A DNA stretch of 29,288 nt from a virus: positions 1-29,288 of IMG/VR virus record IMGVR_UViG_3300028416_001248, one strand, 5' to 3'. This document shows positions 2,501 through 18,575 of this stretch, piece after piece; position 1 is the stretch's first letter; the number at the start of each line of letters is the position of its first letter. The notes beneath the pieces are model-generated. The model did no database searches, had not been told where the DNA came from, and saw only the letters and a program-made list of their open reading frames with translations. The position numbers and the translations under genes were made by a program.

Positions 2501-4717
2501 TTATCTGATTATTACATTAAAAGTACCAGCAGTTCAAGCTGTTCAATTTGTTCAAGCACTTCAAGGCTGTGGACTATATGATCCTGAAACAGTTCATCAA
2601 GCACCTCATGATCATCAAGCACCTCAACTACTTAATAAGTTATAGTTCGCACTATCTAATCCACAGATAATAGCTCAACCTCCACCTCATCCTCATCCTC
2701 ATCAACCTCATCATCCTCAACCTCAACCTGCACCAGAATTTCATCATTTTCATCAAGTTCAACCACTTGCTCATCTAATATCAATAGTTCAACTTCCTTT
2801 TATTTCTCAGGCTTTAATTATGATATTTCATCAGTTATTATCTAATTCTCATCATGCTCATCAACCTCAACCTGCACCATTACTACATCAACCACTTCAT
2901 CAAGCTGAAGTTCAACCTGAATTTTGAGTATATGTTCAATTCCAATTAGCATTTCATCATGGATTTCAATAAGCATCTCATCAAGAATTACTACATGATC
3001 CATATCATCATAAACCTCATGGAAATCAACCAGCACCACCTGAACCTCAGCTTTGTGAATCAGCAGCACCTCAACCTCATCCTCAACCATACCCTCAAGG
3101 ATCTCATGCTCATCAAGAAGCTCAAGCTAGGTATCAGTTTATACTATGACTACCTCAATTTCATCAAGCACCACCTGATCATCAATTTCATGGTGTTAAA
3201 GTAGATCAATTGAATAAAACAATATTTCAATTATTTCAGAGTCATACTACATTTATAGTTCATTCAATATTACAAATCCTACTACAATTTAACTCTAAAA
3301 CTCAATCACTACCTGTTACTTGTAAAGTAGCTCAAGAAGCAACGGTAATACTTGAATAATTATATTGTCAGAATGCTAAGTTATATGTTCATGATAAAAC
3401 TTCTAGATCTCAATCTCATCAATTTCAATAAAAAAGATCTATTCATAAAGCACTGGAATCAAATGAGATTTCAGTTTCACTTATAGCTCTGAAATCATTT
3501 CAAGTTGTTAAATTTCAAGTAGAAATGTCATAAGTATAATAATTTCAGGTTACTAATCCTGTTTGATGCTTATCATATCAGGTATTAACTTTCTTAAATT
3601 CTCATGCATTTCAATCAGCCTGAAGTATTCAAATAAAGTTAGTTCATCAAGGAATAATAAGTTTATATCATGGTAATTTAAGATATAAATCTGCAGTCCA
3701 TAAGTTCCAATTTAAACTTTCTCTAACGATTAAATCTCATATAAAATTAGCTCATGTTTCTTTTTGTGCAGTATAGTAATTTACATCAGATAATGAGTTG
3801 GTTCTTTTTAAAACAATCCAATATTTTGTTTCTGCAACTAATATTGGTGCAGAAGAAAAACTAAAGATTTCTTCTGTAAAACTTCAAGATAGATTTATAT
3901 AATCTATAATGTCTGATATCCCGTTAGTAACTACTGATCAACTTGGCTCTCAATTATTATCAGTTTGTATTTCGATATAAATTCAATCATCAGGACTTCC
4001 AACGATTCTTACACTTAAAATCAGACTACTTATATCTACATTTTGAGCATAAAAACTTTGAGCAATAATATCTCTAGTATTATTTCAAAATGAAACATCA
4101 CTATCCGTTTTTATTTGCTCATAATCCACTAAACTCATTGCTTTTCAAACAGTAGTATTTTGACCTAGCATATAATTTAAACTTGCACTATTAACTTCAG
4201 CTTGTAATCAAGTAATATTACTTCAATCAAGAGCTGGAAGTTTTCAGTTCTCATCTGTTTTTACTAATTGATTCACTCAATTAAAAACATTTCACATTTT
4301 TGTTACTGATGGATTTTTCAAGTCTATAAATACTCTTTCATCTGTAATTACTCAAGAATCTATTGAAGCTAATTTTATAAAATTGCTAGTAGGATAACTA
4401 CCAGCTGTTTTTATCTCTCATATTCAAGTTCAATTTGAATTATTATTGATTCAATCATCTATATTTGCTTGATTTATTTCCATAAAAACCTTTTTAGTTC
4501 AAGTTGTATCAATAACCACATCAGTTGTATTTTGAAATAACACAGGGAAAGTTTCTGAATCTCTAGTCACATCAATAAATCAGTAACCTGCTGTTACTTT
4601 TCAAGATTGCACTTCTAATCATTCAACTACTCAAGAACTAGCAAGTGATTTAAAAATTTTTGCTAAATCATAGTCTTGGTTTATATTTTCTCAGTTTAAT
4701 AAAGCTACTCTTTGCAT
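2501..4717 (-). CDS. Tail fibre or adhesin with polyglycine C-terminal domain
   Basis: The protein has 738 residues. The N-terminal about 500 residues are beta-rich with repeated Asn, Thr, Ile and Gly, as expected for a fibre shaft and baseplate-attachment part. From about residue 508 to 730 the chain becomes glycine-rich, with Ala, Ser and Asn between Gly pairs and an uninterrupted run of more than ten Gly near the end (plus coordinates about 2675-2710). Most of these glycines are encoded by TGA. Polyglycine helical sandwiches form the receptor-binding domain of some phage adhesins such as gp38 of T-even-like phages, so host recognition is a reasonable inference. The gene follows the Tal-like hub and precedes the DUF4376-like gene. 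A repeated stem-loop cassette ends 12 bp before its ATG. Confidence 0.8.
2530..3197 (-). repeat. Low-complexity Gly-rich coding repeat
   Basis: The plus strand shows a dense irregular succession of catcaa, cctcaa, cctcat and catcat, which on the minus strand are TTGATG, TTGAGG, ATGAGG and ATGATG. In the gene frame these resolve to TGA and GGN codons. It is a degenerate codon-level repeat, not a fixed-unit tandem array, and it makes many short open frames on both strands that are not genes. Such sequence is prone to slippage, so length variation between related phages is expected. Confidence 0.75.
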
Positions 4718-4728
4718 TAACTAGATAT

Positions 4729-4783
4729 AAAAAAATAACTGTAAAAATATTACAGTCATCTTTTTTCCCCTCAAGGTCTTTTA
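4729..4783 (-). promoter_or_regulatory. Repeated stem-loop cassette, copy 1 (before fibre gene)
   Basis: The minus strand reads TAAAAGACCTTGAGGGG (4783-4767) followed by an A-rich hairpin (ACTGTAA/TTACAGT, loop about 5) that ends in seven T. The TAA at the start of the motif is the stop codon of the Tal-like gene. The fibre ATG follows 12 bp after the hairpin. See the finding on the six-copy cassette. Confidence 0.75.
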
Positions 4784-10106: not shown

Positions 10107-10370
10107 TTAGGAGAATTTATAAGTAAAATAACTAAGTAATCATATAATATCTTCTTTTAAAACTACTACGATGTCATTTTCTCTCTGAAGTAGCTTTTTA
10201 AATATTTTTATCCATGTTCAAATTAAATCTTTTTCTAAATCTATTACTTCTAGAGAATTTTTAAAATAAGTTTTATCAGCTTCACAGAAGCTATATTTAT
10301 ATTCTATTCCTCAAAGAGAAAATACATCAGTTTCTTGTTTTTTAAATTTATTTAGATCAAGAGTTTCCAT
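10107..10370 (-). CDS. Probable tail assembly chaperone, first gene
   Basis: The protein has 87 residues. It begins METLDLNKFKKQETDVFSLG and continues with a mostly helical body (LEKDLIGTWIKIFKKLLQRE; VVVLKEDIIGLLSYFTYKFS). I recognise no conserved motif. Its ATG overlaps the stop of the major tail protein gene (TAATG), and the next small gene and then the tape measure follow, which is the position of the lambda G analogue. The stop TAA lies 3 bp before the conserved motif of cassette copy 2. Confidence 0.5.
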
Positions 10371-11137
10371 TAGCTAACTGCTTGTTCATCAAAAATTTCA
10401 AAGATATTATTGTTACCATCAGGATATCCTATAAATTCTACTGGAATACTTGCTACTGATTCAAGATCATCATCTTCAGGGAAATCAAAAGCAAGATTGC
10501 TTGTTGCATAACCTTTATATATTTTGATACCGAATTTTTTACCATTTTCATCAGTATTTTCAAATGTAACTTCGTATAAATTAAGAGCCTTAAGTACATC
10601 TTTATAGATTACAGCTTTTGAAACATTAGGAGTGTAAGTATATGTTACAGTTATTTCTCCAGCTTGAGCTGATTTAAATAAAATATATGTTTCTCCTAGT
10701 TCTCAATTTTCTCCATCTCAAACATAAGTTGAATATGATGTAGATGTAACTGTAGTTCCATCAGCTTTTACATTTGTAATAGTAATAATACTATCATCTC
10801 CATTCTTATTAGTAAGTTTAAAAGGAGTATAAGCTATACCAACTGCTCAATAACTTTCATCAGTTACTGTTGTAGGTGTTCCTGCTGTATTTACTAAATC
10901 TCCGATTCCATCTACTTTTGCAATGTTATCTAAAAATAATTCAGCAAGTTCAGCATTAAATTTAACCTGATCTATCTTTTTTCTTGGTGGTAGCTTAGAA
11001 TTAGCAAATTTTAACTGAGCTATCAAGAATGACACTTCTAGTCATGCTCCTTTCAATGCTCATACATTTACTCCATCTAATTTCAGAATACCATTTCACA
11101 TTCTGATAGAATCAGATCTTTGCACAGGTGTTTGCAT
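10370..11137 (-). CDS. Major tail tube protein
   Basis: The protein has 255 residues. It begins with a strand-rich tail-tube region (ILKLDGVNVGALKGAGLEVSF), and contains a Thr/Val/Ile-rich insertion at about 120-180 (ITITNVKADGTTVTS; AGEITVTYTYTP) that looks like an added Ig-like beta domain displayed on the tube. The C-terminal part ends in a strand pair (IPVEFIGYPDGNNNIFEIFDE). It lies just upstream of the two small tail-assembly genes and the tape measure, the standard place for the tube protein. Few Gly are encoded by TGA here compared with neighbours; GGA and GGT dominate, as in the capsid gene, which may reflect selection for fast decoding in abundant proteins (inference). Confidence 0.75.
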
Positions 11138-11152
11138 ATTTTATATTGGTTA

Positions 11153-11206
11153 AAAAAATAATACCTGTATAAACTACAAGTATTATTTTTCCCCTCAAGG
11201 TCATTT
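11153..11206 (-). promoter_or_regulatory. Repeated stem-loop cassette, copy 3 (before major tail gene)
   Basis: The minus strand has AAATGACCTTGAGGGG (11206-11191) followed by the hairpin AAATAATACTTGTA/TACAGGTATTATTT and T7. The major tail ATG is 16 bp after the hairpin. Here the motif is 57 bp beyond the upstream stop codon, separated from it by the terminator of the cargo gene, which shows that the motif belongs to the downstream gene and not to an upstream coding sequence. Confidence 0.75.
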
Positions 11207-11222
11207 CGGTTTTAAAAATGCT

Positions 11223-11248
11223 TGAAGCCCCCAATTAAGGGAGCTTCA
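11223..11248 (-). terminator. Rho-independent terminator of the cargo gene
   Basis: On the minus strand TGAAGCTCCC and GGGGGCTTCA form a 10-bp stem (one G-T pair) around TTAATT, followed by AGCATTTTT. The stem is far richer in G and C than the other hairpins in this window. It ends the foreign-looking gene 15 bp after its stop. Confidence 0.8.
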
Positions 11249-11262
11249 GGTTAGAGAGGAAT

Positions 11263-11655
11263 CTATGCAGTAACGATAGAATCCTCTTTTTCGAAAGGCT
11301 GGAAATTTCCAGTGACGCATTTAACGACTTCGTCCCAGCGATTACTTTGCATATTGCCAAGAATCGTTGAGTTTTCGCCGTGTTCTTTTGCCACTTCTTC
11401 CTGGTTCATAACCGTTGCATTGATGTAGAAGCGACCAGATTCATTGAATCGCTTACTGGTAGTTTCGATGATCTGACCATCAACATCGAACTTGGCGGTT
11501 ACCAGATCAAAGAACTGAACTGCAAAGCAGTTTTGCGGAATATCCAGCTCTCCGAGCTCTCGGTTCTTCACCTTTTTCACTGACTCCTCTGGATAGAATG
11601 AGCCAGGAAATAACAAAGTTGCATAGGTTGTTTTACTCGAATCGATCATCTTCAT
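11263..11655 (-). CDS. Foreign-looking cargo gene (moron), standard-code type, unknown function
   Basis: The protein has 130 residues and I do not recognise it. It starts MKMIDSSKTTYATLLFPGSF, has mixed charged and aromatic residues (FNESGRFYINATVMNQEEV; SNRWDEVVKCVTGNFQPFEK), two cysteines and no signal peptide or membrane segment. It differs from every other long gene here: there is no in-frame TGA at all, its glycines are GGx, it uses codons such as CTG, CGC, ACC and GTT freely, and its base composition is clearly richer in G and C. A strong Shine-Dalgarno (AGGAGA, 6 bases before ATG), a sigma70-like promoter and a GC-rich terminator frame it. It sits between tail completion and major tail genes, a typical spot for independently expressed phage morons. 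It looks recently acquired, most likely from a standard-code bacterium or its phage; an assembly chimera must also be considered. Confidence 0.75.
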   Translation of the reverse strand: MKMIDSSKTTYATLLFPGSFYPEESVKKVKNRELGELDIPQNCFAVQFFDLVTAKFDVDGQIIETTSKRFNESGRFYINATVMNQEEVAKEHGENSTILGNMQSNRWDEVVKCVTGNFQPFEKEDSIVTA

Positions 11656-11690
11656 GGTGTATCTCCTGTATATACGGGTTTAATCTTCAT
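11652..11690 (-). CDS. Possible 12-codon leader peptide overlapping the cargo gene (ATGA)
   Basis: An ATG just after AGGAGAA opens MKIKPVYTGDTP and closes at TGA, which overlaps the cargo-gene ATG as ATGA. This is the usual architecture for translational coupling, but only if TGA is a stop. In code 25 the ribosome would read on in this frame. The overlap is therefore a sign that the cassette evolved in a standard-code genome. It could also be a chance frame. Confidence 0.4.
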   Translation of the reverse strand: MKIKPVYTGDTP

Positions 11691-11711
11691 TTCTCCTACG
11701 AGAGTATTTAT

Positions 11712-11740
11712 ATTCTACATTAAAAGTAACATAAAATCAA
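11712..11740 (-). promoter_or_regulatory. Sigma70-like promoter of the cargo gene
   Basis: On the minus strand TTGATT (11740-11735) and TAGAAT (11717-11712) are spaced by exactly 17 bp. Transcription would begin near 11705, about 50 bp before the cargo-gene ATG. It lies in the gap after the tail completion gene stop (11756). It is the best matching promoter in the window and gives the cargo gene expression independent of phage regulation. Confidence 0.65.
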
Positions 11741-11755
11741 ATAAATAGCCTGTTT

Positions 11756-12109
11756 TTAAAACTTTTGATCTTTAAAAACAAATCTAAAAGTTAGTGGCTT
11801 ACGGAATAAATTCTTTTCAGGATTAGACATATCAGGTCATATAGTATCAAGCTGTGATCTAACTCAATCATCTATTGATCTGTTAAATAATCAAACTACT
11901 AAGTCTTTTATTTCTTCGAATTCTTCCATATTAGTAGCCCATATATCAATTTGATATAGAACTTTCCTAATTCATAGATTATTTGTACTTCATCAAATTT
12001 CACTGTAACTAATAAAAGGCTTGTCCATTCATTTTATGGTTTCCTGATCTCTGCACTTTATATTTTCAGGTCATCAGATTTTTTGTATCAGGTTTACATA
12101 GTTTGCCAT
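11756..12109 (-). CDS. Tail completion/tail terminator-like protein
   Basis: The called protein has 117 residues. It contains DKPFISYSEIGG, VLYQIDIWATNMEEFEEIKDLV and a C-terminal PLTFRFVFKDQ, the alternating strand-helix-strand pattern of tail terminator proteins (DUF3168 or gp17-like) that cap the tail tube. It lies after the gp10-like gene and before the major tail protein, as expected. The ATG at 12107-12109 leaves a 42-bp gap after the previous stop. An earlier ATG at 12164, overlapping the gp10-like gene, opens MIEYSELGFIDIRK in the next frame and would fuse naturally to IYDRMANYV if one base were skipped, so the true N-terminus may be longer. Confidence 0.6.
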
Positions 12110-12150
12110 TCTATCGTAAATATATTTCCTGATATCTATAAATCATAATT

Positions 12151-12606
12151 CGCTATATTCTATCATCAGTATTTTTTTAATAATTTACTAAAATTTTGTT
12201 TTAAAACAAGCACCAATTCCTTGTGGTTTCTTTCAAGTCAATCTCTTAAATAACTTCTTTCTTCTATATCATCAGTTCAAAATTCTAAAACTCTTCAATA
12301 TTCCTCTGTAACTCATTGATTTACTCCTACTACATATCTTCATTCTCATATTTTTTGCATTCAAATACTTCTTTTCAAGTTTCATGTAACTCATTCATAC
12401 CAATGCCCATCTATTTGCACTGGTTTATAATGACTACTTCTCTCAGGAGCTTTCAGGTCCTTTCTATCTATATTATTCTTTGGTAATCTATCCTTATCTC
12501 TAGGAGTTATTTCTCTTACTTTACTAGTAAGTATATTTGATGTAATCTGTACAGATTCATCTATACTCCTTTTCAAAGCTATAGTATTTAAATTAAATTC
12601 AGCCAT
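12151..12606 (-). CDS. Head-tail joining protein, HK97 gp10-like
   Basis: The protein has about 151 residues. Features of the gp10 family are an N-terminal amphipathic helix (LNTIALKRSIDESVQITSNIL), a middle SSHYKPVQIDGHWYEGVTGNLKRSI-like stretch (about 58-82; pattern of p..tG.Lk.SI), VGVNQGVTEEYGRVLEFGT (about 93-111; pattern Y...lEfGT) and a C-terminal helix starting RSYLRDGLERN. This component joins head and tail and belongs to the neck. The key glycines of TGNL and EFGT are TGA codons. The last residues depend on the T-run near 12170, so the exact stop is a little less certain than for other genes. Confidence 0.75.
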
Positions 12607-15665: not shown

Positions 15666-15714
15666 TATAAACAATTACAGACTAGTTTCTTTATTATTCC
15701 CCTCAAGGTCATTT
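15666..15714 (-). promoter_or_regulatory. Repeated stem-loop cassette, copy 4 (before scaffold gene)
   Basis: The minus strand contains AAATGACCTTGAGGGGAA (15714-15697), followed by a region with only weak pairing (AAAC/GTTT and AATA/TATT around a 12-base loop) and then the scaffold ATG. The motif is intact, but this copy has the weakest stem-loop of the six. It lies inside the 3' end of the preceding small gene if TGA is read as Gly. Confidence 0.6.
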
Positions 15715-18523: not shown

Positions 18524-18575
18524 ATAAAGACTAGATTTAGTATCTAATCTTTATCTTTCCCCTCAAGGTCTTTTA
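18524..18575 (-). promoter_or_regulatory. Repeated stem-loop cassette, copy 6 (before portal gene)
   Basis: The minus strand has TAAAAGACCTTGAGGGGAAA-type motif (18575-18559), then a 13-bp stem (12 matched, ATAAAGATTAGAT against ATCTAGTCTTTAT, 18524-18554) and T7. The portal ATG is about 16 bp downstream. It is the first copy in transcription order, just after the double-HTH gene. Confidence 0.75.

Follow-up and report, generated by a model that had tools for sequence, protein, structure and literature searches.

The window analysed here (the whole stretch of 29,288 nucleotides) is a fragment of a phage that uses genetic code 25, in which TGA means glycine, and in its tail-gene region it carries a cargo gene that is foreign to this phage lineage, with the codon and start-site signals of a standard-code genome. 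The segment of about 544 bp that encloses the gene is very probably a transferred moron. This would be an accessory gene equipped with start signals and a terminator of its own, lodged at the boundary between transcription units, behind the tail-terminator gene and directly ahead of a putative control element for late genes. Its source would be a standard-code phage or the bacterium that such a phage infects.

With TGA read as a sense codon, ORFs cover 0.76 of the window, against 0.04 under code 11, and TGA accounts for 473 of the 674 glycine codons (70%). PHROG matches on the minus strand identified terminase, portal, head-tail adaptor, tail terminator, tape measure and Dit genes. The window also contains a gene (2501-4717, minus strand) for a 738-aa protein with 155 glycine codons, 112 of them TGA, and without a PHROG match, which is perhaps a glycine-rich tail fibre. 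The cargo gene is placed between the tail terminator gene and a late gene whose product, judged by position only, is probably the major tail protein. The features of the locus are the following:

10370-11137, minus strand: flanking late gene, 255 aa, without PHROG or Pfam match
11149-11203, minus strand: phage-own element GACCTTGAGGGGAA with hairpin and U-run, present in the empty-site phages (alignment and folding)
11210-11217, no strand: TTTTAAAA, downstream border, direct repeat of the upstream border copy
11210-11753, minus strand: whole insert, about 544 bp, missing from three sister phages (sister alignments)
11223-11248, minus strand: terminator hairpin of the cargo gene, -18.3 kcal/mol, z = -4.0
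11263-11655, minus strand: cargo gene, 130 aa, stop TAG, without in-frame TGA (sequence and relatives)
11652-11690, minus strand: 12-codon leader ORF MKIKPVYTGDTP, whose TGA stop overlaps the cargo gene start (ATGA)
11663-11667, minus strand: Shine-Dalgarno motif AGGAG ahead of the cargo gene, such motifs being present at 0 of 32 other gene starts of the window
11693-11697, minus strand: Shine-Dalgarno motif AGGAG of the leader (sequence)
11712-11740, minus strand: promoter-like TTGATT-17-TAGAAT, 9/12 match, not above chance
11754-11761, no strand: TTTTAAAA, upstream border, direct 8-bp repeat overlapping the tail-terminator stop region
11756-12166, minus strand: tail terminator gene, phage backbone, flanking the insert (phrog_78, E = 5.7e-6)

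Composition and expression signals of the cargo gene

A preliminary description of this DNA had reported 130 codons without in-frame TGA, a richer G+C content and a different codon use, and all of these traits were verified. The GC content of the cargo gene is 0.431, against a mean of 0.277 in the 34 other genes, and its GC3 is 0.477, against a mean of 0.165 and a single-gene maximum of 0.290. Arginine is encoded by CGN and AGR codons in a ratio of 4:0, compared with 13:274 elsewhere (p = 8e-6). When codon likelihoods were calculated without the glycine codons, E. coli use scored 0.37 log units per codon above phage use, whereas every other window gene tested preferred the codon use of its own phage. 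This E. coli-like pattern is compatible with the proteobacterial codon use suggested earlier, although it does not by itself demonstrate a proteobacterial origin. The shift in base composition is sharp at both borders of the insert, and the flanking genes are unlike the cargo gene in base composition and codon use.

At the average TGA rate of the window (70% of glycines) a TGA-free cargo gene has a probability of 2e-4. If the rate is taken instead from structural genes of the window that are poor in TGA, this value rises to 0.06-0.12, and the absence of TGA alone is therefore weak evidence of foreignness, since it could be due to chance in a TGA-poor gene.

The two starts of the cassette have Shine-Dalgarno motifs (AGGAG, AGGA), as had been claimed, while none of the 32 other starts of the window has even a 4-base motif. 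Likewise, 0 of the 12 native starts checked on another code-25 contig (L004, described below) has such a motif, the HU start among them being uncertain. The phage's own translation initiation thus seems, from these start regions, to be Shine-Dalgarno-independent. The ATGA overlap between the leader and the gene start is also present as described. Under code 25, however, the leader stays open as far as 11499, forming an out-of-frame ORF of 63 codons. Since its TGA stop would be lost in a code-25 cell, the coupling probably fails there and the cargo gene would rely on direct initiation. No conservation of the leader was found in the L004 homologue.

The GC-rich terminator was recovered as a stable hairpin, and expression of the cargo gene would be independent of its neighbours. 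The proposed promoter fared less well: the site exists, but the 3-kb region holds 16 promoter-like sites scoring 9/12 where 15.8 are expected. This site overlaps a block, TATTTGATTTTATGTTACT (about 11725-11743), that is common to the upstream regions of the window gene and of the L004 homologue, with a similarity of moderate significance that 24 of 2000 shuffled pairs also attained. Similarity between the terminator sequences of the window and L004 was rejected as real, being at chance level (1736 of 2000 shuffles).

The insertion site in sister phages

Sister phages were retrieved with the major capsid protein as query. In three of them (L032, L035 and L036, 77-86% identical in DNA) the site is empty and the alignment passes straight from window position 11754 to 11217; the end of the tail gene, AAGTTTTAA, is followed within a few bases by TGAAATGACC. 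By comparison with the sister phages the insert, at about 11210-11753, is slightly larger than the cassette described at 11223-11740. Both borders carry the 8-bp repeat TTTTAAAA (for two places picked at random the chance is about 6e-4), which is a target duplication or microhomology, and entry would have taken place by illegitimate recombination at this sequence.

The phage L031, 93% identical to the window, contains a different cargo of 2.4 kb at the same site (L031 9289-11670), which makes this site a cargo hotspot that takes varied genes. The L031 cargo includes an AstE/AspA-type amidohydrolase-like gene (PF24827), and its flanking ORFs look by eye like acetyltransferases, without a Pfam match. 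Its genes have a phage-like composition, are rich in TGA and lack Shine-Dalgarno sites. The last ORF of this cargo is apparently split (11160-11438 and 11493-11669). No family member of the cargo protein was found in the six sister records searched, and its absence from the sisters suggests that the gene may be dispensable to the phage.

The conserved element at 11149-11203 closely follows the insert and precedes the next late gene. It is based on the 14-nt sequence GACCTTGAGGGGAA, with window copies at 4758-4779, 11182-11203, 15690-15711 and 18550-18571 (all on the minus strand) and 4-5 copies each in L031, L032, L035 and L036 (3 in the L031 piece). The sequence is invariant in 18 aligned copies from the window and three sisters, an invariance that is partly selection as the copies were picked by exact motif. 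A longer form of the element gave four matches in the window and none in 100 shuffles. A hairpin and a U-run usually lie 3' of GACCTTGAGGGGAA, roughly 40-70 bases before late-gene starts across this phage group; the hairpin varies in sequence with the stem kept, and the copy at 15710 has no stable hairpin. The element, a candidate late promoter or leader RNA controlling termination, gave no Rfam match. The position of the hotspot at the boundary just before this candidate element may explain its tolerance of insertions.

Relatives of the cargo protein

Scans of the cargo protein or its relatives against Pfam, NCBIfam, PHROGs and PADLOC gave nothing significant, but the homology search suggested in the preliminary description did yield a small family of relatives. 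The closest is a homologue with 54% identity on contig JALZVK010000133.1 (L004), placed between rplA and frr. L004 is a chromosomal code-25 contig (rplA, frr, recJ and a gene with a riboflavin kinase domain) inside a code-11 Saprospiraceae MAG, a case of mis-binning in a genome that is publicly available. Among 395 genomes of the phylum of that bin the family was found only on the L004 contig itself; the genome-contig scan used a single sequence as query, and distant bacterial members may be missed.

Like the cargo gene, the L004 homologue has no TGA (0 of 7 glycine codons), its own terminator and a similar upstream block. A homologue with TGA-encoded glycine in another code-25 genome, which would have spoken against a transfer, was not seen, L004 carrying the sole code-25 homologue found. 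It differs from the cargo gene in having neither a Shine-Dalgarno site nor an ATGA-coupled leader, in its setting among bacterial housekeeping genes rather than in a phage, and in its partly adapted codons, which are mildly atypical in use, with a GC3 of 0.262 that lies near its background of 0.201. Codon likelihood suggested that the L004 copy had a Bacteroidota donor, but this was rejected as indistinguishable from partial adaptation.

More distant relatives occur on four standard-code viral contigs (L007, L022, L023 and L038). They are only 26-34% identical to the window protein and have a GC content of 60-65% where measured. They share with it an N-terminal PGxFF-like stretch and, near the C-terminus, NMxxNxW followed by GN(F/W)QPFE. 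The family is supported by L038, which was scored by the profile at E = 2.9e-24 although it had been left out of it. Pattern hits on L020, L021, L037, L039, L040 and L042-L045 were rejected as family members. With tblastn nothing was obtained from phage records for four members, or from plasmid records for three. The only standard-code homologues found are these distant viral ones, and the searches turned up no donor closely matching in DNA. In a tree the two code-25 copies group together (support 99/99), but with six rows and long branches it fits either one or two origins of these copies, which could not be separated.

A structure model from two sequences was poor, and one from five sequences reached a best mean pLDDT of 88, the other four models being at 52-57. 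The fold search with the predicted structure gave no convincing match, and neither library nor fold searches produced a match pointing to a biochemical activity. We give an even chance to the idea that the product acts in the infected cell, e.g. in host takeover or rival-phage exclusion, and not in the virion.

Origin of the insert and its significance

Morons are accessory genes with their own promoter and terminator found between late genes, and were first described in lambdoid phages. The insert resembles them in being a single gene of atypical composition with its own terminator, placed between genes of the late region and missing in close relatives. It differs in that it crosses a genetic-code boundary, that its promoter is only a candidate and that the fragments show no sign of lysogeny. 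Neither the window nor five sister records, all of which are fragments, yielded an integrase, and a role as a lysogenic moron is therefore unsupported.

The sharp composition change at both borders is also what would be expected if a standard-code fragment had been joined into the phage contig during assembly. Such a chimera is extremely unlikely, because the locus recurs with the same junctions in two IMG/VR contigs of other assemblies, 3300024313_000126 and 3300024221_000828, which are 100% identical to the window over 12,837 and 13,452 bases, and because the insert interval holds a different cargo in L031. No misassembly junction was seen at the cassette edges in these other assemblies. It is very unlikely, too, that we are dealing with a native code-25 gene which is highly expressed and for that reason has few TGA and unusual codons. 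Native TGA-poor genes do exist, such as HU on L004 (0 of 10 glycines as TGA) and the late gene 10370-11137 (6 of 23), but their GC3 stays low (0.10-0.11), they have no Shine-Dalgarno site, and the sister phages lack the cargo gene altogether.

The gene might instead be code-neutral and kept free of TGA by selection, its DNA being expressed also in a standard-code partner cell, e.g. a bacterium hosting the code-25 host. Both code-25 copies lack TGA, and dual-code phages that bacteria of both kinds target with their spacers are on record (PMC10746230). The rest of the phage, however, is dense in TGA-encoded glycine (70%) and could not run through its full cycle in a cell with the standard code. 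These facts are equally accounted for by a recent arrival, and with seven glycine codons per copy there is little power. We consider this explanation unlikely.

For the transferred moron, the transfer proposed in the preliminary description is supported by the empty sites, the different cargo in L031, the recurrence of the locus in two other contigs and the codon use, and a recent acquisition by this phage is the best reading. With four distant standard-code relatives on viral contigs, a phage donor appears as likely as a bacterial one, or likelier, in a search made mostly in viral contigs. With its TAG stop and no TGA, the gene reads as the same protein in both codes, and would for this reason work in its present phage.

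Liu et al. 2023 reported that prophages of code-25 genomes use code 25, and described compatibility with both codes for some of the phages whose predicted hosts use code 25 (PMC10746230). The dual-code phages of Gracilibacteria and Absconditabacteria (PMC10746230) are like the cargo gene in that their TGA-free genes give the same product under codes 11 and 25. In those phages, however, whole genomes lack TGA, while here it is one inserted gene within a TGA-rich phage. The present locus adds to Liu et al. 2023 a gene-level transfer into a code-25 phage.

With its empty sites, the locus offers a clean case of a standard-code gene moved into a genome where TGA means glycine. The difference in code would be no bar to gene flow for a gene free of TGA whose stop codon is TAG or TAA. 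Genes of this type may provide a handle for finding donors, and through them the bacteria that live with code-25 hosts or the phages they share, and the hotspot is open to survey for further genes. More tentatively, and with somewhat less than even confidence, we suggest repeated entry of one uncatalogued phage gene family into code-25 genomes, each time out of a standard-code source: recently in this phage, and earlier in a code-25 chromosome near frr. If this is true, what crosses the TGA barrier is a ready-made gene, and its TGA content and codon use could date the crossing.
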